From positions 124,001-188,000 of the forward strand of contig BDIU01000148.1 in the NCBI GenBank assembly GCA_002118135.1: DNA of 64,000 nt, written 5' to 3'. Positions 216 to 64,000 of the stretch are shown one piece after another (positions within the stretch are counted from its first letter, which is position 1; every line of letters starts with the position of its first letter). A model generated the notes under the pieces. That model did no database searches. It had not been told where the DNA came from and was given only the letters and a program-made list of their open reading frames with translations. The translations under genes and the position numbers were made by a program. Source of the DNA: Trebouxia sp. TZW2008. Its lineage: Eukaryota; Chlorophyta; Trebouxiophyceae; Trebouxiales; Trebouxiaceae.

Positions 216-3200
216 GCCTCCCTCAATGCGGCTGATGACCCTGCTGCTGGTTGTATATGTATATGACATGGATCAGGACACCTTCATACAGCTGCCAGAC
301 ATGCCAGAGAGCTTGCCTGTGCAGCTCTGGAACGCCAAGAAGGCGCTTCAATCCATTGACAAAGGTACAGTGGATGCGTACAGACTGGGGTCATAAGCCT
401 GAGCTGCTTCTGCTGGCAGAGGCAACCGTGATGACGTTTACAGTCTATGCTTTGCTGTTTTTGCCCGTATATATTGCTTTTCTTGCCCTCCTGTCACAGT
501 GTATGTGCCTCTGTGTATTGCTGCAACAAGCCAGACTAGGCAATGCAGGCCTGAAGTTCAGCTGGCAGCATCATGCACAAGGCTTTTGTCCATGTCCATC
601 TGTCCAGCTGTACAGCAGCAGCTGACTGGAAATCGACTGAGACTTGATTAATTGCATGGCACACTTTCAGTGCTGGGGCTCTGCAAGCCATTGTCTGCAG
701 GGGGCTGACTTGTCCATCCCAAGTGAAAGTCCAGCTGGCAATGGCAGGAGATTCACAGCTGTACGGCATACAATCACTTCTGACTTTGTTTTGCTCTGAA
801 TCTGTCTGAGAAGACAAACAACACAAAGACCAGAATCGGGGTATAAAGTGCAATTGGCGAGATTGAGGCGCTGTGTGTGGTTGTGAGGGGCAGAGACTGG
901 TCCATTTGCGAATTCAAAGTCCAGCTGGCAGCGGTACAAAGTGGCCAGCTATATGGCTGCAATGACTTCAGAATCTGTCCATCCTACTGTATAACGCACT
1001 TTTACCATATGAAATCTGAGGCTATGTGTATTGCGATTAAATAGTGAGGTTGGCCATGTGACTGTATGTGGCTGTGTAGGAGCTGACTGGTCCATCTTCT
1101 ACTCAAAGACAAGCTGGCAGCGGCAGGAGGTAGCGCAGCTGTACAGCATGCTATGATTTGCATGCCCATGTCATTTTGTGGGGCTGTGCAGCAGTAGACT
1201 GATCTATCCTCAAATCACGATCACTGGCGCATTCAGGGTGTTGAGTCTGTGCATGACAGTGTCTGTGGTTGTGTAGGGGCAGACTGGTCTATTTTCAATT
1301 CAAAGATAAGCTGGCAGCGGCAAGAGGTAGCACAGCTGTATGGCTGCAATGACATGACCACTGGCCGGCCCAGCTTCCTCAATATGGCCAGCGCCCTGTT
1401 GGCCTACCCACTTTATGTTGTTCAGGTGCTCAAACAAGGCTTCTGCAGTGCATGCACCTACTGGCCTGCCCTTTTGGCATTGTTCACATCCACACATGAT
1501 GCTTCTGCTGTCACTTTTAAGGACAGCACTTTTGGCTTATGGCTTTGCTTCAACTTTGGTGCTGAAAATATTTTTGTGCTTCAACTGCAGCGTTTTAAGA
1601 GTCTTGTCTGTGGTATCCAGTGCCATGAATTGGCACACACCTTGTATGAGCGCCTGTGCCTGATGACAATGTACATGCTCCAACTGCAGCACTGGGAACA
1701 CTGCTACGCTGCAGCTGTCTGAAAGTTTCATGTGTGGTTGGCAGTCATGAGCCAGCAGTCTCCTGATACGAGAGCCTTTTTCAGCTGAAAACCTTGTCCC
1801 TGATTTAATTGCAGCCCTTTGAGATTGATGTTGACCTGTTGTATGCAACGCAGACTCTAGCTGAAAACACCTTTCTTGTCCAACATGTAATGCTTTTACA
1901 CTTTGTCCATGGTATGCAGTCCTATGAGCTGGCATTGACCAATTTTGAGCAGCTGTTGCTCTGGACAACATGTGCCTGCTTCAACTGCAGCGCTGTCAAC
2001 ATTTCATCTGTGCCGTGCAGAGCCTCTTGGTTTGGCCAATTGCGCAGTACTATGAGCTGACGTTCACCATTGATGAGCGCCTACATTAGCGCGACCCGTG
2101 ACGAAACTGCTGAGATTGCCCTTGGTCACAAGCAGCCCTTGATACGTTACTCGTGGTGTGCAGTACTATGAGCTGGCATTTACCTTCTATGAGCGGCTGT
2201 ACCTGCTGGCAGCCTGCCTGCTCTACATCACCTTCCAATCTGCCTTCATAGCCACCTATGCCTTGTACGGAAAACGCCTTGCCCTGTTCCAGTCCGTGGA
2301 CCAGAAGCGCTTGGTGCCCATTGTGCATGCAGGTCGCATCAGGTAAGGTCCCTGTCAGCTTTTAGATGAATCGCTAGGAAACTTGCAAAACAAAGCAACA
2401 ATGTTTACCTGATCAAGATGTTGCTTTGTTCTATGTTTGTCACTATTCCTCTGCAAAGCAAATGATGCAGGCATGCAAAGTCAGCTTTGATATCTAATAC
2501 ACAGTGCATAGTCAGGCCTGTTTGTGAGTGTTTACAGCACAGCAATTCTACATGATATGTCGACTTTGATTGTCTGAAGAGTATGAGGCAGGCATGGCTG
2601 TGGTACCCCTTCTGTCTAGCCACGGACTTTTGCTGCGTGTCACCCTAATCTTTGCTCAGTCGTTGCGCGCATGAACCCCTTGAGTGCAGCAAGGCACCTG
2701 CTTGACACATGGTGCAAGGGTTGGGTGTCAGTATGTTGAGGTGTGACACGCACTGCAGGGCAATCTCTTCGCGCTGGCTGGTACCAGGTGATGTGGTAGT
2801 GGTCATGCCTGGCAAGGCCACCTGCGACATGGTGCTTCTGCAGGGCAACTGCCTGGTTGAAGAGTCCATGCTCTCTGGAGAGGTAAACCTTCTGTAACCT
2901 GCTGTAAACTTGTACACCCCAGCAGTCTGTGAGCATCGTCAGCAGAATTGTGACACTACAAAGCATCAAGATATTTGCTGACTTGCCATGGCCGCGTCTG
3001 TCCAGCAAGCTGTTGCTACTGAACCAATGAGCTGTTGTGTTGGACAGGCTGCCCAAGTGCGCAAGTCAGGCTTTGTTATGCAAGAAGAGGGCAACAAGGG
3101 GAGCTACCATCCTGAGACACATCACAGCTGCACTATTCATGCTGGCACCTCAGTTCAACAGGCAAGCCCAACCCCCATCCCCACCCCAGACTTGCCCGCC

Positions 3201-6200: not shown

Positions 6201-9200
6201 TTTTTGTTCATGTAGCCAGAGCTGCACGGAATGCTGCCAGTGGAGAATGGGCAATTTACAGCTCTGCAGCAGATGGCGTTTAGGTGGCCAGTCAGGCTGA
6301 AGCAGGCTGCAGCTGTATGCAACTCTCTCACTCTGATCAATCAGCGCCAGATTGTTGGAGATGCAGCAGACAAGACTGCTTTCAAAGCTGTTGAAGCTCG
6401 CTTCCTGGTGAGCTGCTATGGCTGCTGCTACTGCTGTTCTAGCCGATGATCATGACACACATTGACACCTACTTTGATGGCAACGCTGCTGCTTGTGCTG
6501 CTACTACAGAGTGACTCAGCTGAACAGACGTATTACCTTTGCAGGAGCGTGACTTGGTGTCCTTACCTTTACGGCGAGAACCCGGGCAGCCCGCCTCCCT
6601 CACCAACCTTCAAGTGCTGAAGCGGTTCGAGTTTGAGGCGCGGCTGATGCGGTCCGGCGTAGTGGCTCGGGACGAGCGCAGCCCGCTCGGAACAGCTTTG
6701 CTGTTTGTCAGAGGAGCTCCTGCCAGGATTGAGCAGCTGGTCAAAGGCGGCATCCTGCCCTCTGACTTTCATGAGGTATGATCAGCATGCAACACTGCAA
6801 TGCCCTTTGCAGCATGATTCGTTTGACCATCAGCATTTGCTGTAAATCATAGGATTGATATGATGCATTTGGCAGAAGCACAATCTGCCATGCAGTGACG
6901 CAGCAGCGCAGCAATAGCAACATTGTGCACATGATCTTGCCTAGACGCTCTCACAGTCTAAGCTTCAGCGGCAACATGATCTTGATGGCAACAACTGCTT
7001 CTTGAAGCATACATTGCGCTGTCAACACTGACTAAAGAGCATGGCATGCTAACAACAATGACAATTGCAGGTGCTGGTAGAGTTGGCTGGTCAGAGCTGT
7101 AGGCTGTTGGCATTAGCAGTTGGAGAGTGAAAGATGTGACTCCAGCAGAGCTAGCCAGTATGACTCAGCAGGATGCTGAGGCTTTGGCTGGACCCCTAGA
7201 CCTGACAGGCCTGCTGTTGCGGTCCAATGACCTGCACTCAGCCTCCAAAGACACCGTGTTCATGATGTTGATCATCATGTTGACCATTGCAGGTGCTAGT
7301 GGAGTTGGCTGGCCAGAGCTACAGGCTGCTTGCCTTAGCAGTGGGAGAGCTGAAAGATGTGACTTCAGCAGAGTTGGCATGACTCAGCAAGATGCTGAGG
7401 CCTTATCTGGACCCCTAGACCTGACAGGCCTGCTGGTGCGGTCCAACGACCTGCACTCAGCCTCCAAAGACACCATGTGCATCATGGTCTTGATGAGGAC
7501 CACTGCAGGTGCTGTTGGAGTTGGCTGGTCAGAGCTATAGGCTCCTTAGCAGTGGGAGAGCTCAAGGATGTGACTCCAGCAGAGCTGGCCAGAGTGACTC
7601 AGCAGGATGCTGAGGCCTTGGCTGGGCCGCTAGACCTGACAGGCCTTCTGGTGCTGTCCAATGACCTGCGCTCAGCCTCCAAGGACGCCATCTTCATGAT
7701 CATGGTGGCCACTGCAGGTGCTGGTTAAGCTGGCTGGCCAGAGCTATAGGCTGCTTGCCTTAGCAGTGGGTCAGCTCAAGGCTGTGACTCCAGCAGAGCT
7801 GGCCAGCATGACTCAGCAGGATGCTGAGGCTTTGGCTGGACCCCTAGACCTGACAGGCCTCCTGGTGCTTTCCAATGACCTGCACTCAGCCTCCAAAGAC
7901 ACCATCGCCAATCTGCAGGACAGGTCTGCCGCTACCTGGCTTTGCAGGGTGTTGGGAATCAACAGCGCTGCTGTGCATGATGGACTTGGTCTGTAACGTA
8001 TGCCGACTCGTATAGTCACATCACAGTGATGTCTGCGGACATGGCTGTGTGCAGTGCTATATAGCTTGGCATAATAGGCTGCATAAATGCTGGACAGGAA
8101 GGACCCAGCATAAGCCACAGAGTGTCTGCCTCTTTCAACCTGTCAAGAATTGTTGCATGGTCAACCATCATGCTGCAGTTCAGGGAGGCATCAACTTGAA
8201 TCCACATGACAGTGCTGTGCCTCATGGGAAAGTTTGACTAAGTCTGTGAGCTATCAAACATATTTTTGGGCATGTGCAGAGGCAACATCAGGACAATGAT
8301 GGTGACAGGAGATTTTCACCATACAGCCATAGCAGTGGCCAGAGGGGTAGGCATGATACGTTTCGGCGGACAAATCGTCATCATACAGGCCAAATCGGAG
8401 CGACAACCGCTCCCCAAAGCTCCTACCCAACTTCCCTCAGCTCTGAAGAGCGCGAAAAGCCTGATCGCCGCTTCGCATACCGTGCGCCGTGGGGTTTCGT
8501 TTGCCCAGTCGGCTCTCTCCCCTTCGGCCGCCTCAGGCGAAAAGGCAGGGACCCCAACTGCAGGGCTGGAAAAGGAACTGTTTGGGCCAAGGTGTGGCGC
8601 AGGGCTAAGTTTCTTGCTGGACACTGAGGACGAGGAGCTGGATCCAGTGCAGGCTCTGACAATGATTGCTGAGGTGTGCTTACCAAATGCGGTAGTCTAG
8701 TCACTCACCTCAGGGGTTGCAAGTAGCTTGTCCATTACTTTATGCATCGGCTTCACAGCGCCAGTGTGCATAGACTAAGGGACAAGTTTCTGCCAGATTT
8801 GATAGGCTTTGCTAACTTTTGCAACAGTGCATCTGCCTACTTGAGCACCAATTCCGACCTGCAGGATGGCACCATGTATGTGCGCTGACCACTCAAAGTG
8901 TGACAATTACAATGGCATGCAGGGCGGTGCACAATGCTGTGTGACTGGAGCAGCATTTGAGCACATGCTTCAGCAGACAGATGCATCCCTGGTGCAGACA
9001 GTCATGACAAACGTGGCAGTGTTTGCCAGAATGCGTACCATGCAGAAAGGCCAAGTCATGGACCTGCTGGGAAGCAGAGGCATTGACCAAAATCTGCATG
9101 GACAGACTCGCCACCTACCTGTAAGCATCTAGCTTGATGCCGTTGCCAGATTATGACAGGATTGGCTGCGATATCATATATAGCAAATGGCAAAGGTCAT

Positions 9201-12200
9201 CTGCAAGACAGTATAGCGTCAACTTGCTGATGCAGCATGCTTGCAATATGCATGATGCTGCATTGACACGACGGCACCAAGCAAGCATACTTGATGGACA
9301 GAAATCTTCTCTGGTCTTCTTTGCGTAATGGCAACTCATCAGCATGCTCTCAGACTGCCATACCCTCTCTGCTATGTCTCTGCACGCTTCTGCTTGGTAT
9401 GCAGGGGCTTGGCAAGACATGCATGTGTTGCAGGGATGACATCAACGACCTGCTGCGTGTGCGCTGCAACAGCTGGTTTGGCAAAGCAGGGGTTAGTAAG
9501 ATGTGCACACACTGCGGGGACAGCATCAGTGACTCTGGCTGTCTTTGCCTTGCAGCATGTGCGTTGTAAGAGCTGCCTACTTGTCATGCAGGGCTTGGGC
9601 AAGACGTGCATACACTGTGGGGACGGCATCAATGACTTGGTGGCTCTGGCGGCAGCAGAACGACTGGCATGACTTCATCAACATGTGAAAGCTGGGCCGC
9701 TTGGTTGTGCCGGCTCTGGGCTGAACTTGCATGTCTTGCTGCATCCCCATGCAACAGTGTCTGTTCTTCATGCAGGGCTTGGGCAAAACATGCATGTACT
9801 GTGGGAATGGCATCAATGACTTGGTGGCTCTGAGGGCAAAAAGATCAGCAGCAGTGATGCACCATTATGTGACAGCTAAGCTGCTTGGTGTTTAGGGGCT
9901 CGACAAGCAATGCATATATCAAAGATAGCCTTGCAGCACGTCTATGCAACAGCAAGCACAGAGCAAGATTCTCCGCTACTGACACTGGTTCTGCTGAATG
10001 TGCATTGCAAGAGCTGCCTACTTGTCATGCAGGGCTTGAGCAAGACATGCATACACTGTGGGGACGGTATCAATGACTTAGTGGCGGCGGCGGATGTGGG
10101 CATGGCTGTATTTGCATGCAATAGCTAGAGTGCGTGTGCAGACTCCGCGTAAGACATGCATGTAGTAGCGCTAGCCTTGCTATATGTTTACGCATTCGCT
10201 GAATCTTTATACTGTCGGTGCACATTCATTGTAAGGGCTGCCTGGTGGATGTGCAGGGTCTGGGCAAGACATGCATGTATTGCGGGGATGGCATCAATGA
10301 CTTGGTGGCTCTGGCGGCGGCGGATGTGGGCATGGCAGTAGGCGCCAGCCATGCATCCGCTGCCGCCTCCATCTCTGACAAGCACTCCTCTGTGGAAGGT
10401 AACACAATGACTGCCTGCCCTTTATCAAGGTGTGCATGCCATGCCTCACCCACCATCTCTATGTCTCACAAGCACTCCCCTGTGCAAGGCAACATTGCCT
10501 GTCTCCCAATGCACTGTCTGTCTTGTGTTACCAATGCACTGGCTGCCAGTTTCCCAAAGCAGCAAGCAGGTGCCAGCCATGCATCCGCCGCCGCCTCCAT
10601 CTCAGGCAAGCACTCCTCTGTTGGTGATACCAAACATCTTTATCACAAACCACTCATGCCTGTTGTTGCCAATGCACTGCCTGCTCTTCCTTGATGCTTC
10701 AAGCCATGGGTGCCAGCCAGGCCTTTGCTGCCACCTCCATCTCTAACAAGCGCTCCTGTGTTGAGGTTCAGATTGCCTCTGCCCCAATGCACTGCCTGCC
10801 TCTTTGCCTATGCTGCAAGCATGTGGTCCTCAGGCTTTGGCTACAGTTGCCTGATGGCCACCAGCATTGCCTGCCTCATTCCCAATGCTAAGAGCAGCTT
10901 GTCTTGAAGTTTGTTGCACACGCTCGCTGTTGCTTGTCAATATCTCAGAGGTGATGCGTGATGCTGAGAACAAGCCAGCCTGGCGAGACAAGACTTTTGC
11001 TACACACACCTAGCACTCTTGCTGGAAAGTGTAACCATTATTATTATCATTATTTCAAAGGTCATCAGATGCAGCTGAGGCAGAGGCATCGGTTACGGGG
11101 TGCTATGCGTGCACCTGAACTGCCATACGTGCTTGGCTGTAACAAGCTATCAGCAGCTGTAACACACGCTCATTGCCTAGCACGATGTGTGTTGGATCAG
11201 CGGTGAGCGTGTTGGGTTCAAGATGTAAGAGCAGTGAATCTGAGGCAGGAGGCGGTGAACGTGTTGGATTAAAGATAAAATGCTACTCAAATTAGCTGTA
11301 ACAAGCTAAGCAATGAGCGCAATGAGCGTTCCGCAATGGTTGTGTGTAGATCAGACAAGAGCGTCTGCTGTTATCTAAGACGGACTGAGAGGCGGCTCAG
11401 AGCTCACCCAGTAACGCTCAACTAATCAGACTCAACTGCAAAGCCTTCTGATCTGTGACTCAGCTGCTCAGCATGCTCATTCTGATGAGCAGTACTCAGT
11501 CTGTTGCATTGGCGCTGTGCTCATGTGAGCACTCTGAGCAAAAGGCTGAAGGAATCAGGTCCACGCTTTGTCCAGATATGGAACGATGTTGTTTTGTCTA
11601 ACTTCCACATGTTGAACGTCAACCGTCCTTTTCATGGCACCCAGAACAAGCCAGCCTGGCGGGATAGGGCCTGGGCCACACACGCCTAGCACATGTGCTG
11701 GAATGTGTAACCATTTGTTTTCATTTGTCCAGCCTTGACTGACATAAAAGCAGATTTGGTGCATGTTGATGCTGTTGACCCTTCAGCTGCTCAAAGCCCA
11801 TGACACGCCTGCCCAAGGACTCTTCAGCCCAACATCAGCAAAGGCCTGCTCCTGTTGTTGAGCAGTGGCTTACAGCAATTTCTGCTCTATCATGGTGCAT
11901 GTAAGTGTTGTTCTTAAGGGGTGAAGCACTGCAGGCAAGGAGGCCTCATAGCACAACAGGCTGTCAGAGTTCAACCTGCATCACATTCTGGATGTGTCAC
12001 AACTGGCTGTGCCTGGTCACTGCAATCCTAGGCTGCTTCTACTCAAAGAGGCTCCCATCATGACACCCAATGGTGCAGATTTGCTTGTCTTTTCTTCTTG
12101 GCAGTGCCACAGCTGATTGTGCTGTTTACAGGGGTGGTTCATGTACTAAGGCAAGCTCGCTGCTCACATGTCATCAAGCTGGCAGCCATCAAGGTATGGC

Positions 12201-34900: not shown

Positions 34901-37900
34901 GAGGCCTTGTGCTTGCTGTACACTTTGACGACGGAAGCAGAGGCAAGACTGGCAGTTGGGCAAGCTCTGGTGAAAGCAGTTCAGCCTGGTCAGGCCCTCC
35001 CACTTCACCAGCTGCTGACTTTGATGGCAGAGGGAGATGCAGGTACAGTGCAGCGACTGCATCCATCCTCTTGACTTCACTTTGTCACAGTTCAGGAGAT
35101 CAGTGCTGACTGTGAAGCTCAAGTCTCTTACTGTCTTGTAGGCTCTCAGGCCATGGCGTCATCCCTCCTCAGCAAATTTGCAACACTGTCTGATGTGGTG
35201 AGAGCTGTTGATGCTGCTGTCAGCTCTTGCAACCATATGTTGCCAGCAAAGTCAAACAAAAGCTGTTGTCATCAACAAATTGCTGCAAAGCTCAAAGCTA
35301 TCACAAGATTGTCCCACACATTCTCAAGCCATGGTCTTGTCTCTGCTCAGCAACTGTGCGACACTGCCTGATGTGCTGAGAGCTGTTGGTGCTGCTGTTA
35401 GCTCTCACGATCAGTCAGCAGCATCAAGCTGCTGTCCAGTCAGGCTCTTGCTGTGTTGCTCAAATCTGTCAGAGTTTTGTCCTGCAGGCTCGCAAGCCAT
35501 GGTGTTGTCCTTGCTCAGCAACTGTGCAACACTACCTGATGTGCTGAGAGCTGTTGGTGCTAGTGCAACTTCTGACAGCCAGACATTTATTGCCAGCAGC
35601 ATTAAGCTGCTGTCCAGTCAGGATCTTCCTGTCAGCTGCAAAGCTGCCACCCTCATTGGCAACTTCTGCCATGACAAAAGCCTGCGCTCTCAGGTGTGAT
35701 GCATTCGCGTACTGTACATTGCTGCGTGAGCAAAAGGCCTAATGGGTCTGGCAGCAGTGTCATGCCTTTTGTAGCTGCATAACCTGCTCTTTTGCTGTCT
35801 TGTCTTCATTGTTTCTCTACTTCCTGTGCATATTTAAGACGTGGATTGTACATCAAGGCACGGGCGGGTCCATGAAGCTTCGCTTTGCTCTGTGATGCTG
35901 CAATGCTGCATGCCAACTAGTATATGATGGGATCCACATGCAGTGTTGCTGTGCACATAGACTGATATCATGATCCTTTGTCAGCTTTTGCAGCATCACA
36001 GTTTTGTCTGCGCGTTCGCCATGTCAACTCGAGCAGCCCATCACCAGCCGCATGCTGTCCAACGCATAATTTCCCAACGGCTCACTGATTTCACTGCTTG
36101 ACCATGCACTGTCGACGTGAAGATCACATCAAGCAAAGCAGCAGTCGTCTCCTTGTTAGCTGCCCTTGCTCGCCACGCTTCATCACTTTCACAACCCAAG
36201 TCATCTCAAGCCAACGCTCAGCAAAGTCAAGCTCACCAAGTGACAGACAGCACAGCACTTGAGCCCCAGCTGCTGGGTGGTCCCACAGGCAGTTCTGCTG
36301 GTTTCAGCATCCCTTCTGACCAGCAGAGCCTAACCATGGCAGAAACAGCCTCAACAGAAGCAGCGCTGGCAGCAGCTACAGCTCTGCAGAACCTGTTGTT
36401 GGACAAGCAAGCACAGGTTTTGGTGGTGGATCTGCGTGGCGTAGCACTCCTTGGCAAGCTGCTGTGCTGTCCACACCGCCTGCTTGCTGCTAGGGCTGCA
36501 GGTGAGGCTTGACTTCAGAACCCGGGCAAATATTTGTAGGGCTGCGCCCACATGCACAAAGGTTTCCAAGAGACGTTCAATGCATGCAATGTACATGCAC
36601 TCAGCATGTCGCATTTACAGCAGTGCACAAGTCTTGTCTTAGTCACGACCGTTCCCTTTTACAGCAATCCAAATCATGACATGTGAGCTTAGAGCATGAC
36701 GTATGCATAAGCAGCTGCCATTAAGTGACAATACGCTTTCTTGCTCCTTCAAATGCCTCCATATTTGGGTGCACCTATGCTCAGCTGAACCTCTCTTCCA
36801 CCACCACCAACTCTCCACAAGTTCAGCATTCCTGCATGCCCAGTATTGCCGCTACTGCGTTGCTTGCTCCACGCAGTTGGAGTCACAGGCAATGCATGCA
36901 CGCAGTATACGCACTCGTCAGTGTTGCAGCAGCTGCTGCCCTTGCAAAGGGCTGTGACTTGTGCACTGCTTGTAGCAGCAACATGCAGCTTCTTGCCTTA
37001 CGATCGGTTTTTGGTGGAAGCGTAAAAAGGTCTGTGCTCAACTGATGCCTCTCACTTGTGGCCTCCAAGCAAGGGGTGGCAATTGTATGCAGTCTGTTGG
37101 TTCAAGTTGAGCAACAAGAGCTGCTCATGAATCCTTCAGGTCAAGTTTGTGTGCAGGGATTCTGGCCAGAATAGTTCAGCAGGCTCAGAGCCATGATCAG
37201 GTTTTGAGCACTGGGACCTTTGATGCTTTGCTGCAGCTTCTGGCAGCTGCTCTCAGAGAAGACAACACAGGTGAAGCAGCTTGGCGATCACAGGTATGTA
37301 CCTGGCTTGTTTCCCTACTTTCAGCTTGTGGTCATGGCCATGACAAGTATGCATGCAAGATCAGATGCAAGCAACCAGCGTGAAGCCATCATGTGCCCTT
37401 GAATTTGTGGCAAAGTGCTTGAAATGTGACCTGCAGAAGCAATCTGGCATACTCTAAATGTGGGACACCATCTGTGCCTCTTCACTTGCTGCTCACAGAG
37501 GCTAGCAATGCCTGCAGCATAACATGACAGCATGCAGATCAACTTTATTTGAAGCACAATTGCCTTCAAACCCAACAGCTGATCTTGTCAATTACCAAAG
37601 CTTGTTTGTCAGTGCAGTTTTTGCAAGTCTACTTCCAGACACCAGCAAAGCACCCACGCAAATCCATGCTTGTAGCCAATGAGATGTGACGATCAGGCCT
37701 GCTTGAACAGGTGCAAGAAGCTGCTGCTCGGATAGCAGCCACTCTGACAGCCTCATATGCACCATCAGTCATGCACATTGGGCAGGGGCCAGGCTTAGAT
37801 CTACTGCTGCAGCTGTTACAAAGCTCAGACAGCAGTGATACTGTGCTGGGTAATGCAGCACTGTGCATTGGAGACCTAGCCAGACAGCCAATGATGCTGC

Positions 37901-42165: not shown

Positions 42166-45100
42166 TCAGTTCTTTGCGGTGCCGAAATAAGTTGTCATGA
42201 CGTCCTTCAAGTTCAGATTTGGAATGAGATGCGGGTGCGCAAAGGGCTCATTTGTATTTGGGGAAACGCTGCTTCTTTTGAGCCATGCCTCTATTGCCTT
42301 CCTCTCATAGGTGTGACCATCAGCCGCTGTCACAGGATCATTCATCAGTTCCTGCACAAGCAAATCAAGGATAAGAAATCGATCATTCACATCAGCAATA
42401 CAGCATTGAGGTTGCACGATTGCTCCACATACAGGAGGTGAGTGCCAAGTCAAAGAAAATGCTACGCCGTTAGGCGTCATAACGGGAGCCTCTGTCTAAA
42501 GAGGCAGCCCGGGAAGTGCCAAGTCAAAGCTGTAGACTCCTGTTTGCATGACAACGTGGCAAAAAACTGCTGTCATAGGCAGTGACCTTGCTCAAGTTGC
42601 ACAGTCATTTGTCACATATGCTTGCACTCACACAGAAGGGATAGTCAGATAGCGTGTTGTCGGCGACAATGCGGTGTCGACCTCAGTAATTGCATCAGCC
42701 ATGACGCACAGCACAGCCAATGTGTAATCAGCTGGTTGCATCGAGACTGCATGCATTGAGACTGCATTTGGCGGTGAACATACTGCATTGTGCTGAGTCA
42801 CAATTGAAGTCTAGCAGAAGAGGCGCACCATAGTGATGGAGCAGGTAAAGGAGAACGGGATGTCCTCACTATCCTTGGACCCGCTGCTAGCAAACGCAGC
42901 CAGAAGCTTTTCCCCATCAATCTTCTTCACAGCCTTCTTACTTTTTCCACTGTCTCCTGTAAGCGCCTCTGACGCTGAAGCCTGCTGGCTTGCTACTTGG
43001 TCGCCAGAGCCACTGCTACTGTGTTGTGAAAACAGAGAATCAAGAGCAAATTGAAACAAGGCCGCTGACTGTGATTGTGACACTTGTGATCTTGAAGATT
43101 CTGTAGAGACGCCTGATGCTGCTGTATGTGACTGTGGCAATTCAGGACTGGAAGACGCTGACGCAATATATGATGCTGGTGCGTATGGCTGCAGCATTTG
43201 TACTCTGGGAGACGCTGCAGAGCTGTTTGATGCTGCTGCTGCATTTGACTGCAGCATTTGCAACCTAGGAGACGCTGCACAGCTGTCCGCTGCTGCCTTT
43301 GACTGCAGACCTTGTGTTCTGGAAAATGGTGACGAGACATCTGATGCTGCTGCATATGGCTGCAGCACTTGCACCCTAGGAGACGCTGCAGAGCTGTCTG
43401 ATGCTGCTGCATATGAGGAGACTGACGCACTGGACGAGGGAAGCAAGGGCCAGTTCTCCGTAGATTCTGTGGGCTCGCTCGCACTGCTGGGTCTGCTTGT
43501 AGATTCTGCTGCTGTGATTCTCAAACTCTGAGGCAAGTATTGCTGCAGTGTCTGTCCTGAAGGTGACTGGGCCTGCATACCAACAGTAAATATCAGTACA
43601 TTCTGCAACGACTGACATTACATGTTGTACAATGTAGATTTGACCATTGCTGGCAGCATACGTCATTGCAGCTGATGCTGGTGATGTATCATGGCAGCTG
43701 TGTGTCAGTAACAGAGCAAGTCAGATGCAAGAGATCAAAAGGTTGTGCAACATGAAGCAAAGATCTGATGTCTGGCAAAGCAACACAGATCAGCACAAGG
43801 CTACCGGATGCACGTACGCATTGCATTCTTTTTTGTGTTCATGACAATTGACAGCAGCTAATGCTCTTGAGCATACAGAGCAGAGAGAGTGAAATGCTCA
43901 GGGCCAAGCAGATTGATAAAGTCATGCAAAGGCCTGTTGCACGACATGTATATACGGCATGTACATGGCTCTGTGAAATTTACGACAAGTACCTGCTGTG
44001 ACCAGCGCCTTGCAGGGTCAAAGGCCTTCAGCTCGCTTGGGTCGTGAGCAAAACTGCAGGCATTGCCTTTGCGACAGCAGCCTAGCTGATTGTAGCGGCA
44101 CAACGTGATCTTGTGACATGCTGGGTCAGGACATTGTATCTGCTCCTCTGGTGCCTTGTATGTTTCTGGTGCCTTATGTGCCTGCATAGCAAAACTACTG
44201 CTGTCAGCACAATGCTACTTATGGATGTGCTCTATGAGCATGCTCAAAGCTCTGAGATGGGAGATGAGCCGATCGGACAGTGGGTCGGTGTCAAAATCAC
44301 TCGCTTTGCCCCTGTCTGGCGGACAGCATCACTTGTTCAAGCAGGATGTGTATGCCGCAAGCCATCACAAAGGGAATCCCAGTTGCCAGGAGCAGCCCTG
44401 TACGCTGCCATCACACAGCATAGTTCTGAACATGGGCAGGCGCAAAAAGCATGCTGCAAACTTTTGACCCTGCCAAACAGACAAAGACACATCAGCAACG
44501 GGCCACAATACCTGTTGTACATGGCGTCTTGAGGGATCAAACAGCCGCAGCTCATCAGGGTGGTGAGCAAAGGTGCAGCTTTCACCATACTGGCAGATGC
44601 CGTGCTGATGGAAGAAGCACATGGTGATCTTGAAGCGAGCTGGATCAATGTCTTGCTGCTGCTCCTTAGGTACATGGTATGTAGGTTGCGGTGCTTGATA
44701 CATCTGCAATGCAAAGTCAATCACAATGATGACAGGCGAGCATTGAATGAACACCAAACAGTGTTCCTCAGTGAGATGACTTGAGTTGCTTTGAGTGAAA
44801 TCAGCATCATCACGTGCAGCATTGAAAGCGGCATTAGCAGCAACAGACCCCTGACAAAGTGCCAGAAACATGTTAGCATGATCATAAGTCTTACCTGTTG
44901 CATGTAGCGTCTTCCAGGGTTATATGCTTGTAGCTCAGCAGGGTCATGCGCAAAGGTGCAGCGTTCACCTCGCGGACAGAACCCCTGTTTGAAGAAGTTG
45001 CACAATTGAGTTTTATACACAGCAGGATCCTGATCAGGACGCAGATCCTGTGCTCCCTGCTGCTGCCTCATGTTCTGTTGCATAGAAGGTGCCTGCATGA

Positions 45101-46204: not shown

Positions 46205-47732
46205 TCAGAACATTGGCCCTGCGGACAGCTTGTCTCGATACCACTTGATGAACAGCTTCCCTGATGTCCAACTGATCAATGAAGCTGAAATGCGAGCCAC
46301 AACCAGATGGTTGCTAGTGGTGGTGATGAAAACATGCAGGGTACCTGCCTCATGCAGCATAAATCGAATACATGCCACCGCAGTGGACACAGTGACAATA
46401 CTCACATACACACACCACATGACACAGAAGAAGACGTAGCGCTTTCTGGCAACCTGACTGACCTGCAGGCCATTGCAAAGAGCGTCATAGAGCATACATG
46501 CAAGTTGCATGAGCACAACTAATAGAGTGAACAGCACTATAATGCTGTCCTTGCAGTGGATTGGTTATGTTGGTCTGTATGTTGGGCACTATCAGCACAC
46601 TTCATAAAGTTGTGTCATGTGCGCATACTCACATGCAGTAAATACTTACCTCTGGTCGTGACTGTAAGATGGTGTGGCCCCATTGAATGATTGGTGATAA
46701 TACTGCTGAAGCTCCTCCAATGACGACTGCATCATTGACCCATGGTTCCTGCACCTCAGACAGCGCTGACTACAGCTCATGTGCAGTGAACATAAAGACA
46801 CAACATGCTGCAAGCAGCACTGCAAGCCGCCAAACATGCATGCCAGATCGCCTGAGCAAGTGCTTTGCCTTTTCTTCTGCAAACACCTGTGATACCGCAA
46901 CAGACAGCACAGACAGGTTCAGCACAATTTTAGCTGCAGACACCCTCAGATCCACTCAACTCACCAGCTGAGGCATACATTCTCTCGCGAATTACGTCAC
47001 AGGGCACAAACAAAGACCTGTCATACCTGGCTGTGTAGGTGGTGGGTCTTGTTCCAAGCCCAATCAAACAATAATAAGCCCCAGCCCAGGCCCAGACAAC
47101 AAAAGTATGTGGCAAGCATCCAGTTGATCATCCTGTCAAACTGGTCCAGCTCTGACAGTGCTGCAACGCCACACATGACGCTGTTGGTGTGTTTCAGGGC
47201 ATGTGGACGACATGTATTTCTTGTCAAGGATCATCCGCTGCCTGCTTTAGGCCTGGGAAGGCTAAGCATGATTATTGCTTGCCCTTGACATGATCAAGAA
47301 AGCTCAGATCATTACCGTATTGACCCCCTTGAGCTTGTGCAGGAATGTGCAGCGCTGCTGCAATAGCATGACTGTCGCTGTGATGTACCCCTTGATTTGT
47401 TGCTATAGACCAAGCTGCTTGCGCTGCAGCACTCAACAGCTTCAGCAATGGCGAACAGATATGCTCTTCACCCTTCAAGCCTTGGTCAGGACTGTATGTT
47501 CAAGATCTTGTGGACCAGCACGACCAGTGTAAAACAGTAGAACTACCTTTGTTGGCAGTCTGCTCAGCATATGCAGCCTGATTGCTTGCACGATTTGCAG
47601 GCAGAAGCTGAGTTCGATCTCCTGCAATCAACAACGTCGTATTGCGCAGGAGGAAAGCCGCCAGCAGAGAGCCACAGCAAGTAAAGTACCGTGCAGCGCC
47701 TCCGCATCGTATGCGACATACGGTTCCTCCAT
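46205..47732 (-). CDS. Unrecognised three-helix membrane protein (about 229 aa, seven exons)
   Basis: Not recognised as any family. Exons in transcript order: 47732-47690, 47621-47547, 47480-47316, 47160-47027, 46748-46650, 46462-46345 and 46260-46205 sum to 690 nt, with every junction phase-consistent from ATG to TGA. The N-terminal half is soluble (MEEPYVAYDAEALHG; Ala-rich LLKLLSAAAQAAWSIA). Hydrophobic segments follow: MLATYFCCLGLGWGLLLFDW, AVVIGGASAVLSPIIQWG, and YVFFCVMWCVYVSIVTVSTA. The C-terminus is short and basic (KLFIKWYRDK). There is no clear signal peptide. Start codons of this gene and the upstream exon of the OPR/RAP gene lie 118 bp apart, pointing away from each other. An R4 repeat sits in intron 4, next to the donor of exon 4. 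Confidence 0.6.
46940..47020 (-). repeat. Dispersed repeat R4, copy 3
   Basis: Plus strand AGACACCCTCAGATCCACTC and AACTCACCAGCTGAGGCATA, the reverse complement of the 3716 copy. It directly abuts the donor of exon 4 of the membrane-protein gene. Confidence 0.72.
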
Positions 47733-48106: not shown

Positions 48107-48555
48107 GTACGGCATTTGAAAGGTGTACTCAAACTCGCGCTGCCTAGAGCGTCTGCTGATGCCCTTCGTATGTCGTGCTCATTCAAAAGTGATACGATTA
48201 ACATTCAGCATGGTGTTCGGGTGATTCAATTTGCTGTGCACTGTGACTACTGTCATGCATGTTTGTTGTACCCCGGCCAGAAGCCGGTCTTGCCGTTTTG
48301 ACAAAGCAAAGTGCCAATCACTGTGTCAGACGAGTTTTGCCATTTATTGGATTTTTTGGCCAGTGCAAGCGCACCGTATTTCACAGTATTTGAGCGTTAT
48401 GCCTGATCAGATTGATGTGTCCCCATCTGCTTTTCATTGCAGAACTTTGAAGTTTCCCCTCTGGTCAATTGGCGTATAGTGACTAAGATCAGAATCAGTA
48501 GATGCAAAATAAATTTGATGGCTGACATGGCAGTGAGTGCAGGTCAGCTGAGGGA

Positions 48556-51500
48556 ATGGAAAGCGATGCTTTGCCAGCAAAGAGACTGCGGTACTCACCT
48601 GAGAGCAAGCATGCTCCGCAGCCGCAAGTCACAGTTGCAAAGTCACAACAAGGCCTTGAAGCTGCACGCATGATCCAAGGTGTGCACAGTCCAGACAGCG
48701 ATTCAGCTGCAAGTTGCATCAAGGCAGAAGCTAGTCAGGTAGCTTCAAAAGTTGGCCTGGGCCAAGCTCTCAGAGCAACTGCTACTCCCTGGACTCCTGC
48801 CAAAGTCTCCAATCAAGCCATTGTCAAGCAGCCGAGCAATTGTTGGGACACTGGATATGGGCCAGCTTTCTTCACCAATGCTCACAGCCTCATCACTGCA
48901 AGCGAAAACGCTCAAGCTGCTTTTGGCACAGACATTGCGGCCCATTTTGGACAGGTGTGGCATGCACTACAGCAGTGCTTGCAGAGGGCGCTTTCAACAC
49001 TGCAGCAGAGACAGCAAGATCGCAAATTGAAACCAGCTGTGTCTGTACTGCAGGCGCCTACTTTTGGCAATCTCAGGTCACAGTCAAGACGGCCCCCTTT
49101 GCAGCCTTTGTGCACTAACAGCCTAGTCAGCGCTGCAGATGAGGCTTTGTCTCCCTCAGAAGACAACGTGACCTTCTCAGCACACCTGCCTGAAGGTCTT
49201 CTGACACCAGTCAAAGACTGCACGCAGCAAAGCTCGCAGCTGCTGTCAGGCAATGCCAGTGAAGCACCTGATGGCAGTCCTGCCGTATGGCGACACCAAG
49301 TACAGACTCAGTACAGCTTGTTTGACCAGAGTCAGGACCGTGTGTCCTTCTCCACAACATGCACCCCCACCAGCATCTTTCGGCGGCTCAAAACAGTAAG
49401 CCCTGAGGCTGGTGCTTGCAGTCAGCAGAGACGCCCACAGTTTGCCCTCAGTCAGAATGATGACCCAAGGCAAAAGGCGCTGCCTCAGTCATATGCAGGT
49501 CAGATTCCGCCCATGGCCCTTGTGCCACAGAAGAGAGCACGCCCTGTGCAGAGAGGAATTCACCCAGCCGAGATCAACAAGCGGATTACCACAGCACAGC
49601 ACAGTTGGCAGATTCTGGACATAGTCAATACGTTTGGGGCAGAGTTTGACGCTGTCAATGTGGCCACTGCACTGCACAGGATAGCCAAGCAGAAGCCTGA
49701 TGATGCGCTGCGCCTGACTAGCAGTGATGGCTTCAAGCAGCTGGTCATCATGGTGGACATTCAGGTATGCTGTTTACAGTCTTTCTCTCTTGCTACTGAA
49801 GCAAACGCAGTTGCCTTGACGCTTTACTTCAGCAATAGAGAATTTCAATTGCCCAGTAGACTGCCTGTGATGCTTTGACATGGTGTACATTGTGCAAAAG
49901 CAGATGCCTCAAATTCATGTGTCCTCTTGCTTGTGCCTGTGACAAGTAAGGACTTTCACTGCAGGCTGATCAGTGCAAGCCGCAACAGATTGCAAACATC
50001 ATGTGGGCATTTGGCACCCTGGCTTACAAGCCTCAGCAGCACCTGATCAATGTGCTGGCAAGCCAAGCTTTGTCCAAGCTGCAGGGCTTCAACCCTCAGA
50101 ATCTGGCCAACTTCATCTGGGCATATGCACGGTATGCCATATGCATTCTCTTCAGACACTTCCTGTCAGCTTGTGCTGTTGTCTGGCAAATTGCGTCGCA
50201 ATTCCAGAAGCAACTGCTTGCTTTCACTGCTGGCCCGCTGCACTTCAATGCTGCAGCTTGTGCTGTGACGGCGTCAGCTTACCAGATTCCTGAAGCAAAC
50301 CTTTCCATGTGCGATGCAGAATGGAGCTGCAACCTGCTGGGGATGTCTTGCAATCATTCCTTGCAGAATGCGAGCTGAAGCTGGTGCACTTTGCCCCTCA
50401 GAACATCAGCAACATGATGTGGGCATGTGCAACATTGACAGTCTCACCAGGTTTGTCCCTTCAGCATCTCAGCTGCAAAGCAGACTCATTTGCAGCATAA
50501 CACAGTGCTGCGATGCCTCCTCAGCACCATGCCTGTGCCCCATCTTTCACAGTTGTCCAGCCATGCCATCACTGCCAACATTGTAAATACGCACATCATC
50601 GCTGTATCTCACAGTACGAGTCTCTGCAATTTGCTTTGTTTGCATGCCATCAGATGGGCACTCTATTAGCCATGATACAATGTAGCATGCAGTCTTGAGG
50701 CACCACATTGAAAGGCTTGCACTTTTGCAGGCAGGAAGTTTCTGGCAGCAGTAACATCAGTGTCTCTGCAGCAGCTGCATATGTTCACTCCTCAAGCCAT
50801 CAAGGACACCTTGTGGGCCATGGCCACGATAGGCTACACGCCTGCCAAGCCTTTCCTGCAGGGCGCTGCAGATCTCTGCCTCTACCTCATCTTGCAGTTC
50901 AATCCCCAGAACATTGCCAATGCCATCTGGGCCTTTGCTAAGTTTGGCTTCAACCCTGGCAGGTCAGGCAGCCTTTTGACCTCATCCCTTCTGAGTCTCA
51001 TGCAGTTCCTGTGGGGCAAGCTGAATGTCATGCTGCATGTCTCCATGAGCAGCAGACGATCTGCATATGCGTGTGCTGAAGCTGGCACCACCTTGAGCAA
51101 GCATGGTTCACGTTTGCCAAACACGTCACACAGGGTGATCTGTTTCATTGTTGCTGCCTCTGCTGTGCACAACTACAGTCCCTGGCAGAAACAGTTGGGG
51201 AGCTGTTGTAACTTACTGCCGCTTCTGCTGAGTGTAGCAAGATCCCGGACAGAAAATACAGCATGGCTGATGAATCGAGCATGCACTGCCTTGTGTGAGC
51301 AGGGAGGTGCTGAGGAGTGCGATGGCAACACAGGCCATGCAGCATCTGCTGCAGCTCAGCAGCCAAAACATGAGCAACACCTTCAGGGCGTTTGCTTCAC
51401 TGGCTTGCCACCCTGGCCCTGCGCTACAGTCTTGAGCACAAACAACTGCACAAGTTACATACTGGGCATGAACTGTCTGGTGTGAGCAGCGAGGTACTGA

Positions 51501-54500
51501 GTGCCATGGCAACACAGGCCATGCAGCGTCTGCCGTAGTTCAACAGCCAGAACAGGAGCAACACCTTGTGAGCCTTTGCTTGACTGAGTCGTCACCCTGA
51601 CCCCATGCTTCTGCTGTGTATAGCTACAGTCTCTCCACAAAACACAGCACAACTCATGTATTGAGCACGCACTGCCCTGTTTGTGCAGGGAGGTGCTGAG
51701 TGCGCTGGCAACACAGGCCATGCAGTGTCTACCGCAGTTCAATAGCCAGAACATGAGCAATACCTTGTGGGCCTTTGCTTCACTGGGTTATCACCCTGGC
51801 CCCATGCTTCTGCTGTATACAGCTATAGTCTTCAACACAAAACACAGCACAACTCACGTACTGAGCACGCACTGCCCTGTTTGTGCAGGGAGGTGCTGAG
51901 TGCAATGGCAACGCAGGCCATGCAGCGTCTACCGCAATTCAATAGCCAGAACATGAGCAATACCTTGTGGGCCTTTGCTTCACTGGGTCATCATCCTGGC
52001 TCCATGCTGCTCAAGGTGCTGCAGAGGGAGTTGCTGCACAAGCTGTCCCACTTCACTTCTCAGGGCATTGAGAATGTGCTGTGGGCTTTTGCCACCTTGG
52101 GGCATCATCCAGGTCCGCTCACTCCTCCAGCAATATCTATCGCGACCACAGCTGCAGCATGCATACTCCTGCTTGCATGCATGCTGTCAGTGCACCCTCC
52201 AGAGGCAAATGGCATCGGCGAACGTACCAACGCTGTGCCCTGATACATATTGAGCAAACCCGCACCCATCATGTGCCCCAGTGCATATTGACTGTTTGTC
52301 CCTCAACAACCAACAGCTAATAGATGTCCTGACGTCAAGCCAAGACACAGACCCTGTTAGTCTTCACAGCTGTGCTTGCACAACGGCATGTCCATGACTG
52401 GCATTCAGCTTTGGTTTGGCATGCCTGTCTCATCAGCCAGGCAACACCCTACTGGCTTGCATTTTGGCATTTATCGAAAACGTTATCCAACTTGTTCTAG
52501 TGTGCCTTTCTCATGCCTTGCCTGCTGCTTGGCCAGGCGACACCATACTGGCAGCAGCGGCCCAGCACATCAGCAGCATCTTGAGCCACTTCAATCAGCA
52601 GAACCTGGCGCTGGCTTTGTGGGCCTTTGCCAAATTGGGGTGGCGACCCCATCAGGGCCTTCTGGCTGATGCATGCCACCATGCTCTGCCTTCCTTGCAC
52701 AGCATCAACCCACAGAATCTGTCCAACACGCTGTGGGCCCTAGCTACAATGGAGTTTATGCCACCTCCAGCCATGCTAGAGGTGTGTACATATCAGCATT
52801 TGGCACATTGATTGTGTAAACTTTCTCCTTTGTTCAGTACAGTACGATCCCTGTTTGTCTTCTGATTGTGCAAAAGTGCTAGCTGTGACTACAAACTCAT
52901 CTCATCAAGCTGTGTCATGAGTTCATGCTGCAGGTGTGATGACTGGCTGCATGTGTGCAGTGCGTGTGATGTATCAGCACTTTCAGAAGCATCAAGTAAA
53001 ACACCTTAGCTCAATAATACACAGCATCAAATAAGTCATGTTGACGTGGACTTGTCTGTGCCGTGTGCAGGCAGCAGCTGCCAGAGCTGCAGAGGTTCTG
53101 CAGGACTCCACACCTCAAGCTGTAGCAAACCTCATGTGGGCGTTTGCTGCTTTATCTCACAATCCAGGCAAGCCTCTGCTTCCAGCAACTTCTTACTACT
53201 TCAAGGGCGCACTTATGGCTACTCTAGCTTTGAACTTGCCTTCATGTCATGTTTTCACATCCGTATGTACGACTTTGCTGCTACATTGTGCACCAAACGG
53301 TTTTCAATGTTCAATGACGCAGCTCAGCAGGCTTGACTTGGCAACTTGCAATGCAATACATTTTGCAATGTTTCAACATTCCCTGCACGTAATGATATCT
53401 GCATTGTTTGCAGGCTCTGCTCTGATGACAGCTGCGGCAGATGATCTTGTACAGAGGGCAAATGACTACAGTGCTCAGCATCTTGCTGCAACATTGTGGG
53501 CCTTTGCAAAACTTGAGACAGTTGCGCGCCCAGGAATGATCCAGGCATGCACCGCGATGCCAAGCATCATGCACCCTACAATGCCCATTGTTGCTCCTAA
53601 TTGTATCATGTGTGCATTGCTTTGGCTGCAAACTTGGTGACAAAGGCGATTTAGCGTGGCACCCACTACACTGAAAACCTGACACTGCTGTGATTTCAAA
53701 GGTGCCTGCTGCTCATTTATTGACCAGAAGCTGTACAGTCATGATCACCAAGTTTGCACATTTGGCAGACATGCAATGTTGACATGGGTCAGGGCCATCA
53801 CACTGGACACTTGCGTTTTGTTCAGCACACAGCTATGGTGCCTTGTTGCGCAGGCTGCTTTTATCATTGCTGGGGCTAGGATAGGATTGCAGCTATCATG
53901 CTTGCCTGTGCAGACTGCTTTTGTACTAGTTGCACACTGCCTTAGCCCAACCAAGTTCAGCTTGCACGCTGTGTGTGCAGGTTGCTGTTGAGCATGTGAC
54001 ACAGCGCTTTGGCCAGTATAGCCCCCAGAGCCTCACACATTTGATGTGGGCCTTTGCCACTCAGGAAGCACAGCCAGGCACTGCAGTCTTGGACACTGTT
54101 GCTCTGCACTTGGGCAAGACGCTGCAGGTTTGCCTTCTGCAGCACTTGTGGCCATCCATGCATGACGTGAGACTGCAGCAAAAGCTGACAATCTCAACAT
54201 ACAAATGAGAAGCTTGCCTGCTGGCTGCAATCAATGCAAGGCCAGCACAGACTGGTGTTCTCAATGCGTGTGTGTTGATTTTGCCCACAAGCACACCTTT
54301 CATATAAACCAAGCCAAATGTGCTCAGACTGATTGTTTTTGTGCCTATCGTGTTCTTCTGTGCACCATTCACCTGACTGTGGATGTCGATGCTGCATAAA
54401 TGCACAAATGAACATGGACCAATAGAGTTTGTGCTACATGTCTAAGCTGTGACTGAGGTCCCCACGCAGGAGTTTGATGGGCAGCTGCTGGCTAATTGTT

Positions 54501-61913: not shown

Positions 61914-64000
61914 TTATTGTGCTTGCAAGATGAGAACTACGCTTGCTGTACCTTGAAAGTTTCCATAGCGCCTCATGGCTCCACTCATAGCATCAGCCAC
62001 CCCCATCAGTGTCCCCTTCGCTGCCCCTGAAGGCAGAGGGCTACCCCGCACAGAGCGGCGATCCTCTGCTTCACTGTCAGCTCCAGCCTTGTGCCTTGAA
62101 GATGATTTGCCTCCCTTGTTGCCAAGAGACACAAAGGTGAGGCCCTTGGGTTGCAGTGGCAGCAGATACTTGGCAGTAGGCGGCTCAGCTGCTTTGCTAG
62201 GCATAAAGTAGCCGTCTGGCCGTACAAAGTGGGGCAGTATGTGGGCTGAAACATCTGCCTTTGAGCCTGCAGGCCATACAAGCGTTAAGCCAGATATTCC
62301 AGCTGACACATTGCATGTGCATGTGCTGCTGTTTCTGCATTGGACCGTGCACGAAGTAGTAGTATGGCCGCACAGAAATTAGGCCCTTGGGTTACAGTGG
62401 CAGCAGGTACTTGGCTGTGGGGGCCTCAGCTGCCTTGCTAGGCATGAAATCGCTGTATGATCATACGAAATGGGGTAGTGTGTGGGCTGACCCATCAGCC
62501 TTGTAGCTTGTACATCATGCACAGATTGAACTCATGCATGCCTTGCTGGGCATGAAGTACTTGTCTGGCCTCACAAAGTGAAGCACTGTGTGGGCTGACG
62601 CATCAGCCTTGGATCCTGCGTACCATACATGTGTAAACCAAAGTTCTGTATGCCTGCTGAGAAAACGCATGTGTGCAAGCTGCTGTGCTTGTATTGGACG
62701 CTGCCTGAGGTACCTGTTGGCTGCATCAAGTAGGGAAATATGTGCTTAGACGCATCAGCCTTTCAGCCTGCACCTCATGTGTGACCTCAACTGAATGCAT
62801 GCCACATACAGTAGGCTAATTTGGTCAGTCTGCCATTGCCAATATGCAACCCCTGTTGGATGCCTTTGACAGCAAGGATAGTGACTCAAACAGACTAGTC
62901 AATTGACTTATGCCAGCTGTGTCTAGCAAAATGGGCGCTGCTATATCTGCCTTAGCCCATGCATATTTGTTGTTGCTGGTCGTGATCAATGCTGCGAAGC
63001 CAAACGCTGTGAATATGCTGCAGCGTTAGGTGAGCAATGCAGGCTTTACTCATTTGGGAATGGCCAAATTGCATAACATTCATGTGGCAGGCTCATGTAC
63101 AGATGACACTGAAAAAGGACAGTATCTCTGTATCAATTCAGATTCAACAGACGTAATGGGAGCTACATATTGCGTTGTAAACCTTCTGACCTTCTTTGGG
63201 AAGAGGAAGCTTGTGAGAGGATGGTAGCATGCCAGAAGCATACTCTCCCACATGAGGACCAGGGTGACGATTGTGCCGCTTGGCGGCCTGTTGCTGCTGA
63301 TTAGACCAGCTGGCCTGTGAAGCTTGATGAGCCAGTGACAGCATGGCTGAAGTGCTGGAAGCATGCTGCAAAGGTGCACTACTGTCCTGCCTTGAGACCC
63401 CTGCTGATGCTGCCGCCGCCGCTGCTAATGTTGCATGCTGCAATGACGGTGACCCCTCTTGCCTTATGCCCCCTGCAGCTGCTGCGGCTGCTGCATGTTG
63501 CAATGACCCTACACCCTCGTGTCTTATACCCCCTGCCTGCTGCCTGGCTGTATTGCTACCATGACTGCTGCTGATGCCGTGAGGGCTTGTCAGCTGCGAG
63601 ACAGGTGACTGCCTGTCAGGGCTGTGACCGGCCCTGAAGTGATGAGAGTACAGCTGTGCTGGCATGTGACTGAGCCCACTGGCACTCACAGGACTGGCTG
63701 CACCAGAGGCTGCATGGCTGTTGACCCTCGCCAAGTGACCACTATAGTGCTGCTCATCATGAATCCGCTGCTGCTGCATTTGCTGCTGCTGCTGCATTTG
63801 CTGCTGCTGCTGCATTTGCTGCTGCTGCTGCATTTGCTGCTGCTGCTGCATTTGTTGCTGCTGCTGATAATGCTGATGAGATGCAGCATGAGCTGATGAG
63901 TGCCAGTGTGTCCCAGCATCAGACGGCAAACTTGCTGATGGGAATTGCCTTTGGCTGTGGGATGGCGTTTGCCCTTGGGCCTGAGAGGGCACTTGCCCTG
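61914..64000 (-). CDS. Gln-rich protein of unknown function, 5' end outside the window
   Basis: Not recognised. Two exons are visible: one from beyond 64000 down to 63191, and the last at 62266-61914. They join in phase (LPLPKEG, then SKADVSAHILPHF). The first visible exon is low-complexity: Gln/Ser/His-rich, five QQQQQM units, an Ala-rich part with a repeated GGIRxEGxxSLQHA unit, and a basic end (KRHNRHPGPHVGEYASG). The last exon has a conserved-looking stretch VRPDGYFMPSKAAEPP, TAKYLLPLQPKGLTFVSL, then Ser/Arg-rich sequence and a stop at 61914-61916. This suggests a nuclear regulatory protein, but that is inference. Three eroded copies of the last exon's head lie in the intron. Confidence 0.6.
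61999..62775 (-). repeat. Tandem partial-exon array in the Gln-rich gene
   Basis: On the minus strand, copies of the exon head (SKADVSAHILPHFVRP) start near 62765, 62615, 62506 and 62266. The 62615 copy encodes GSKADASAHTVLHFVRPDK. The 62506 copy encodes YKADGSAHTLPHFV, then a stop, and later KYLLPL, then another stop. Only the 62266 copy, the last in the transcript, is intact. Confidence 0.8.
63763..63866 (-). repeat. 18-bp coding microsatellite (QQQQQM units)
   Basis: Five to six copies of CTGCTGCTGCTGCATTTG on the plus strand, encoding QQQQQM in the Gln-rich protein. Such tracts change length easily. Confidence 0.9.

Follow-up and report, generated by a model that had tools for sequence, protein, structure and literature searches.

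Partial tandem copies lie on both sides of exons in a Trebouxia genome, probably left by frequent short duplications filtered for an intact transcript

The stretch of DNA under study, hereafter the window, is 64 kb long and comprises bases 124001–188000 of contig C144 in the genome assembly of the green alga Trebouxia sp. TZW2008 (68.5 Mb, 527 contigs). Its gene-model proteins match P5B ATPases and, in Pfam, the TCP-1, FAST_1, protein kinase and CCCH zinc-finger families. A divinyl reductase encoded in the window shares 91% identity with proteins of Trebouxia sp. C0004/C0005, and the next named match (82%) is a JGI 'Astpho2' protein, a source which we take to be Asterochloris. The original prediction for this stretch named nine arrays in which a segment comprising a 3′ splice site and the beginning of an exon is repeated in tandem, such that only the last copy continues into the rest of the exon. 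All nine arrays exist with this layout (9/9; Table 1). Here, we show that such arrays have mirror counterparts on the donor side of exons, and we consider how both kinds may have arisen.

The analysed sample amounted to 245.7 kb and included the window, 18 further 10-kb stretches and one 1.7-kb stretch; the stretches were chosen by number and not at random, and 104 kb of the sample belong to a single contig. Gene models were obtained with a small self-trained gene finder (acceptor consensus TGCAG/G, donor AG/GTRAG), and a second, looser gene model was run beside the first. The gene finder is imperfect, as it called some copies exons and missed some exons. In the exon survey, 282 predicted exons (score ≥8) with 60-nt flanks were each searched against 2 kb on either side. 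This yielded 144 matches, and 54 of the 282 exons had at least one, counting the matches within exons and those in excluded components. Where a component contained several predicted exons, it is uncertain which copy is kept, i.e., serves as the exon, and such components were set aside from the scoring below. A copy was classed as a head when it carried the acceptor side of the exon and ended before the donor, and as a tail when it carried the donor side without the acceptor (48 matches in the head-upstream and tail-downstream classes).

The results showed a two-sided arrangement. In the single-exon components, 30 exons had a match beyond their own limits. Among these, head copies were found upstream in 16 exons and downstream in none, while tail copies were found downstream in 11 exons and upstream in one (Fisher p=5.6e-7). 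The looser gene model gave 14 upstream and 0 downstream for heads, and 1 upstream and 10 downstream for tails. The strict head-upstream or tail-downstream classes comprise 23 exons, with both types present around four exons; one of the 16 exons with upstream heads (10772–10854) comes from a weak model, and its exon status is doubtful. An acceptor-only rule was thus rejected, since donor-side arrays exist. The claim that the kept copy is always the 3′-most one in the transcript is contradicted by the 11 sampled exons with downstream tail copies and, within the window itself, by the three tail copies (10438–10764) that follow exon 10257–10398. Downstream copies had been named in the original prediction as an observation that would count against it, and such copies were found.

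The latter exon, the GDGIND exon of a P5B ATPase gene, is flanked on both sides: four head copies precede it and three tail copies follow it. The GT, read by eye, is intact in two of the three tails. Elsewhere among the P5B arrays, the looser gene model starts exon 1277–1425 at 1318, and the first gene model starts exon 7718–7923 at 7794. The copies beginning at 7071, 7293 and 7509 show gaps of 1, 4 and 5 nt relative to the kept copy. Their frames are broken, yet their mutual differences fall heavily on third positions, which neutral decay alone does not explain. Each of the four P5B exons tested is single wherever it is matched (in 32, 31, 19 and 20 of 38 annotated Trebouxia P5B-like proteins), and this includes exon 1277–1425 (single in 19/19 matched proteins of relatives) and exon 2164–2342 (20/20). 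The genome has about 20 loci for P5B ATPases, which are numerous in other Trebouxia too, and the GDGIND exon (47 residues) has 40 matching places on 22 contigs of its own genome. When the best match per contig was taken as the exon, and contig C432 was omitted as a repeat of contig C50, 15 further partial matches on seven contigs lay upstream, starting at residues 1–5 and ending at residues 23–43 (the window itself accounts for three of them), and one lay downstream (residues 13–46). The upstream matches ending at 39–43 are barely shorter than some best matches, so that only the shorter ones are clearly truncated. Copy number and presence differ among the paralogues. One P5B place stands on both C50 (237272–237863) and C432 (38906–39497), where its spacing and scores are identical; it may have been duplicated recently, or the assembly may be redundant or include a second haplotype. 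An 11-bp unit (TCATTCTGCTG) is also repeated in tandem at 4721–4862, within the P5B gene but outside the predicted exons.

Local arrays were then counted irrespective of exons by self-comparison, where an array was defined by local direct matches with a bit score ≥44, a length ≥40 nt and an offset of 50–1499. The sample contains 64 such arrays, 14 of them in the window, and the aligned copies cover 26,078 bases (10.6%). Their density on the window's contig (25 arrays over 104 kb) resembles that in the rest of the sample (39 over 141.7 kb); besides this contig, 12 of the 15 other stretches bear arrays, the exceptions being L002, L015 and the short L018. Local pairs are direct in 172 cases and inverted in two, and each of five dinucleotide shuffles of the sample gave no local direct pair. 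The smallest offset per array has a median of 134 bp (arrays <450 bp), and in 28 of the 64 arrays the similarity covers 0.9 or more of the period, in the other 36 less. The copies are direct, head-to-tail and local, that is, products of local tandem duplication. Templated insertion in either orientation was rejected on the basis of these local pairs and of the exon-based matches (3 inverted vs. 182). When the window was compared with itself, none of the nine named arrays matched anything beyond its own copies, except for two short families of dispersed repeats, and 7066–7906 has one match in the whole genome in a search skipping very common words.

No significant preference of the arrays for exons was found. 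With the first gene model, 38 of the 64 arrays touch a predicted exon, compared to 35.6±3.7 in 500 random shifts; with the looser model, the numbers are 46 and 42.5±3.5, with 20.6% of the shifts reaching the observed value, and exons account for 29.4% of the copy bases vs. 27.8% of the whole sample. The arrays free of exon contact number 26 in the first model and 18 in the looser one, and at least two of the 26 (701–1353, 1604–2211) belong to exons missed by the first model. Exon-targeted duplication was therefore rejected, as neither model gave a significant excess over random shifts. All four pairs inside exons (two arrays) have an offset divisible by 3, and the remainders 0/1/2 of the other 168 pairs are 58/53/57. 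The process duplicating acceptor–exon segments that had been proposed for this genome thus survives in part: continuing duplication is plausible in view of the varied identity of the arrays and the variation among P5B paralogues, but its specificity for acceptor–exon segments is unsupported, with donor-side arrays nearly as common (11 exons vs. 16) and no significant exon preference. Nor is the pattern confined to exons, given the duplications off first-model exons at 28511–28674 and 15543–15774 and the in-frame array within an exon at 43061–43415.

The copies themselves appear to decay. The exon part of the 48 head and tail copies is on average 84% identical to the kept exon, with the divergence mostly between 10 and 22% (10th–90th percentile); 18 of the 48 are frameshifted, and seven have an in-frame stop. 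Private changes at codon positions 1:2:3 number 62:52:91 in 38 copies from 14 arrays (about 5.4 per copy) and 10:3:23 in the 14 kept exons (about 2.6 per exon). From these counts and codon positions it follows that the kept exons are under constraint, to which the copies are far less subject. The excess of third-position changes in the copies is significant, though mild (p=0.002, with sites treated as independent), and would be expected if the copies arose successively from a constrained exon; coding constraint on the copies was rejected overall, although the excess is strong in one array. The original prediction also held that upstream copies decay by frameshift or stop, which does not apply throughout the 51.2–52.0 kb array, where copies 1 and 3 are open over the exon-like part and copy 2 has stops; the codon-position divergence there is 0.09/0.08/0.21 between the true exon and the copies and 0.14/0.14/0.19 between copies. 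The AG is intact in 25 of 29 head copies and the GT in 12 of 13 scorable tail copies. Median acceptor scores are 5.4 for copies, 6.6 for kept exons and −0.8 for all AG, and 21 of 29 copies and 13 of 16 kept exons exceed the 90th percentile of AG sites; for donors, 8 of 17 copies vs. 10 of 10 kept exons exceed that of GT sites. Judged by these motifs, most copy acceptors look usable, and their spurious use is possible.

The genes holding the named arrays are listed in Table 1. The gene called TTC12 in the original prediction has only a sub-threshold TPR match in Pfam. In the FAST-domain gene, each upstream copy carries about 78 nt of intron tail, and the coding repeats of the CCCH zinc-finger gene are spaced by 57, 60, 54 and 57 nt, each divisible by 3. 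Two dispersed repeats were also noted. One is a family of about 70 nt with members about 60–90% alike (10967–11039, 11643–11715, 16107–16179, 16584–16656 and 30286–30351), which may be the remnant of a small mobile element; the other occurs in both orientations and is up to 85% alike (3703–3820, 15227–15328 and 46896–47014).

Table 1. Kept exons, their partial copies and other tandem arrays in the window
Feature	Position	Strand	Basis
P5B ATPase kept exon, last copy of array 701–1353	1277..1425	+	start by eye; end from looser model
Upstream head copies of exon 1277–1425: 701–769, 871–968, 1055–1156	701..1156	+	self-blastn
P5B ATPase kept exon of array 1604–2211	2164..2342	+	looser gene model
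Upstream head copies of exon 2164–2342: 1604–1700, 1903–2001	1604..2001	+	self-comparison
P5B ATPase kept exon, 4th copy of array 7059–7906	7718..7923	+	acceptor from array alignment; end/donor predicted
Three upstream head copies of exon 7718–7923, from 7071, 7293, 7509	7071..7684	+	alignment
P5B ATPase GDGIND kept exon, array 9399–10324	10257..10398	+	gene model and exon search
Four upstream head copies with acceptor region: 9400–9455, 9564–9659, 9771–9832, 10003–10110	9400..10110	+	
Three downstream tail copies with donor region: 10438–10494, 10565–10621, 10709–10764	10438..10764	+	
82-bp tandem duplication inside TCP-1 gene span, touching no first-model exon	28511..28674	.	self-comparison
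TCP-1 family gene (CCT8 of the original prediction), kept exon	28696..28831	-	exon search, Pfam
Upstream head copy of exon 28696–28831, array 28739–29017	28913..29017	-	exon search
Upstream head copy of exon 34757–35042, array 34616–34844	34616..34710	+	exon search
Kept exon of gene called TTC12	34757..35042	+	exon search
Upstream head copies of exon 35488–35693, array 35132–35632	35132..35215, 35290..35454	+	exon search
Second kept exon of the same TTC12-called gene	35488..35693	+	exon search
Array within one exon of CCCH zinc-finger gene	43061..43415	-	self-comparison, Pfam
Three upstream copies of exon 51889–52112; exon-like starts 51303, 51490, 51689	51225..51806	+	alignment
FAST-domain/OPR-like gene, kept exon, 4th copy of array 51253–52011	51889..52112	+	Pfam FAST_1; end from gene model
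Protein-kinase/Gln-rich gene model, kept exon	61952..62266	-	gene model, exon search, Pfam
Upstream head copies of exon 61952–62266, array 62140–62712	62381..62510, 62539..62673	-	exon search

Most probably, short stretches are often duplicated in tandem, blindly, and the arrays are those duplications that an intact transcript can tolerate, a reading to which we give a probability of about 0.7. Short direct duplications would arise all over the genome regardless of genes, by slippage or unequal exchange, and within genes only those leaving the mRNA intact would persist, with selection as the filter. A unit spanning an acceptor would leave its last copy as the exon and the earlier ones as intron debris, a unit spanning a donor would leave the first copy as the exon and the later ones as debris, and a unit inside an exon would persist when its length is a multiple of three. 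Splicing would most likely skip such remnants because each partial copy holds one splice site only, so that the acceptor–donor pair with the shortest distance over the exon would win. Such an exon-centric proximity rule, favoring the closest acceptor–donor pair across an exon, is described in PMC9225289; under exon definition, the last acceptor and the first donor would therefore be used, and this is the two-sided layout read from the DNA. An intron-centric rule would favor the first acceptor, and the layout of the arrays suggests the last one. In our sample, both mirror classes occur without significant exon preference, the copies are in direct orientation, and they change more rapidly than the exon in use. 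When blind duplication was simulated with random breakpoints, mixed ages and the intact-transcript rule, the outcome was 162 upstream heads, 162 downstream tails, 4 downstream heads, 1 upstream tail, 78 full and 4 inner copies, which is consistency rather than proof because the transcript rule itself fixes which copy is kept.

Several observations weigh against blind duplication as the whole explanation. Some concern position: in the single-exon components, inner copies lay upstream in seven exons and downstream in one, one exon had an upstream tail and one a downstream full copy, and the set-aside components were mixed (full copies 8 down/4 up, heads 8 up/4 down, tails 5 down/1 up, inner 4/4). 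Others concern how briefly the copies extend into introns. The intron-side similarity has medians of 18 nt for 29 head copies and 7 nt for 19 tail copies, whereas the simulation predicts 46–47 nt at the observed identity of about 80% (medians of 80.8% for heads and 80.0% for tails) and comes down to 13 and 10 nt only at 74.5%; the seven head copies with at least 85% identity reach just 2–17 nt, and the four such tail copies reach −5, 6, 12 and 60 nt. The short reach of the heads agrees with the earlier statement that units start at the acceptor, but units with more intron do exist, namely in the 51.2–52.0 kb array (about 78 nt) and in array L012 (about 95 nt). The reach could be shortened by faster decay of introns, by conversion with the kept exon as donor or by a bias of breakpoints towards splice sites. 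Gene conversion is a possible, though less probable, alternative: the kept exon would refresh the exon-like part of the copies, while diverged intronic spacers unable to pair would run away, and the copies would therefore look cut at the splice site. This is supported by the fall in identity between head copies from 0.72–0.78 over the first 60 exon nt to 0.67 at −20..0 and 0.56 at −40..−20, against an unrelated-sequence baseline of 0.41–0.44 (this profile leaves out two of the 19 tail copies, for which no anchor was obtained). In the same direction, the non-kept copies diverge by 0.10–0.11 in the exon-like part vs. 0.38–0.53 in the intron-like part at 7.06–7.9 kb, and by 0.13–0.19 vs. 0.30–0.46 at 51.2–52.0 kb, i.e., about 2–5 times less in the exon-like parts of these two arrays, and the copies at 7.06–7.9 kb differ mostly at third positions (0.08/0.03/0.22). 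However, copies 4 and 5 of L012 are nearly identical in the intron part (6/92 sites differ) and not in the exon part (16/78, with 7 gaps), and its copies 3 and 4 resemble each other in the intron part (13/92) as well as in the exon part (8/87). That splice sites are the true boundaries of copying or homogenizing on both sides of exons, with half-exons made or refreshed up to the splice site, is a tentative idea that we rate a little below conversion; if true, exon-like halves would stay young while spacers age, and the genome would hold a reservoir of half-exons. A dedicated process copying segments bounded by splice sites, in the sense of the original prediction but acting on both exon sides, appears unlikely: the intron-side extents are indeed shorter than in the simulation with random breakpoints, but exon enrichment is not significant in either gene model, units with about 78–95 nt of intron occur, and 26 of the 64 arrays (18 with the looser model) are free of exon contact, although at least two of the 26 belong to missed exons.

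It is less probable still that selection maintains the copies as regulatory decoys or as poison sites, a function that was proposed originally. The retained AG and GT and the good acceptor scores of the copies, close to those of the kept exons, would suit such a role at the level of DNA, but a second-position divergence of 0.107 alone would keep about 80% of the dinucleotides intact, copy donors are weaker than kept ones, and copy number and presence vary among the P5B paralogues. With many frames shifted or stopped and private substitutions near neutral, this function found no positive support. An artefact of assembly or haplotypes is very improbable: tandem repeats are hard to assemble and one P5B place stands on two contigs (C50 and C432), but most copies are 10–22% diverged from the kept exon, with private changes, and arrays occur on most stretches besides the window's contig. 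Taken together, these data leave blind duplication filtered by the transcript as the best-supported reading.

The noteworthy part is the density of arrays, a figure obtained for this genome alone. If the sample is typical, there is about one array per 4 kb, so that many exons lie beside broken copies of themselves. Such copies confuse gene prediction (the gene finder called copies as exons at 7103–7717), and the arrays amount to many natural tests of whether splice sites are chosen across the exon or across the intron in an alga. The Chlorella variabilis genome paper is said to mention exon-like repeats in introns. The Trebouxia A48 genome paper gives 12.72% repeats, and the words 'tandem' and 'exon' are absent from its main text; neither word is used in the available text of the Asterochloris genome paper, and that of the Coccomyxa genome paper has 'tandem' once only, about centromeres. 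No description of the present pattern was found in the literature searched, which consisted mostly of titles and of passages from a few papers.

Among the closest known systems is the intron gain in the potato RdRp gene, where a direct tandem duplicate of an intron–exon structure likewise brought a putative branch site, tract and acceptor. That is a single case in which activation of a cryptic donor led to a new intron, whereas here many copies occur on both sides of exons and seem silent inside existing introns. Intron gain by tandem duplication in general shares the duplication adjoining splice signals, but no new intron is claimed here, and the units include intron sequence and an existing splice site; the two arrays examined carry about 78 and about 95 nt of intron and are not purely exonic AGGT-bearing segments. 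Introners, i.e., similar introns scattered in unrelated genes, differ as well, since within the window the nine arrays match only themselves, apart from the two dispersed repeat families. Tandem exon duplication and mutually exclusive exons, the topic of PMC9013439 and PMC6071210, also place exon copies side by side in one gene. Here, however, the copies lack the far splice site and many frames are broken: the 48 head and tail matches do not combine an acceptor, a donor and an open frame in each copy, and full copies occur mainly in the set-aside components. Finally, the exon-centric proximity rule predicts, through the nearest acceptor–donor pair across the exon, the very layout that we found; it was derived from human alternative splice sites (PMC9225289), while in the present work its operation is suggested by algal DNA.

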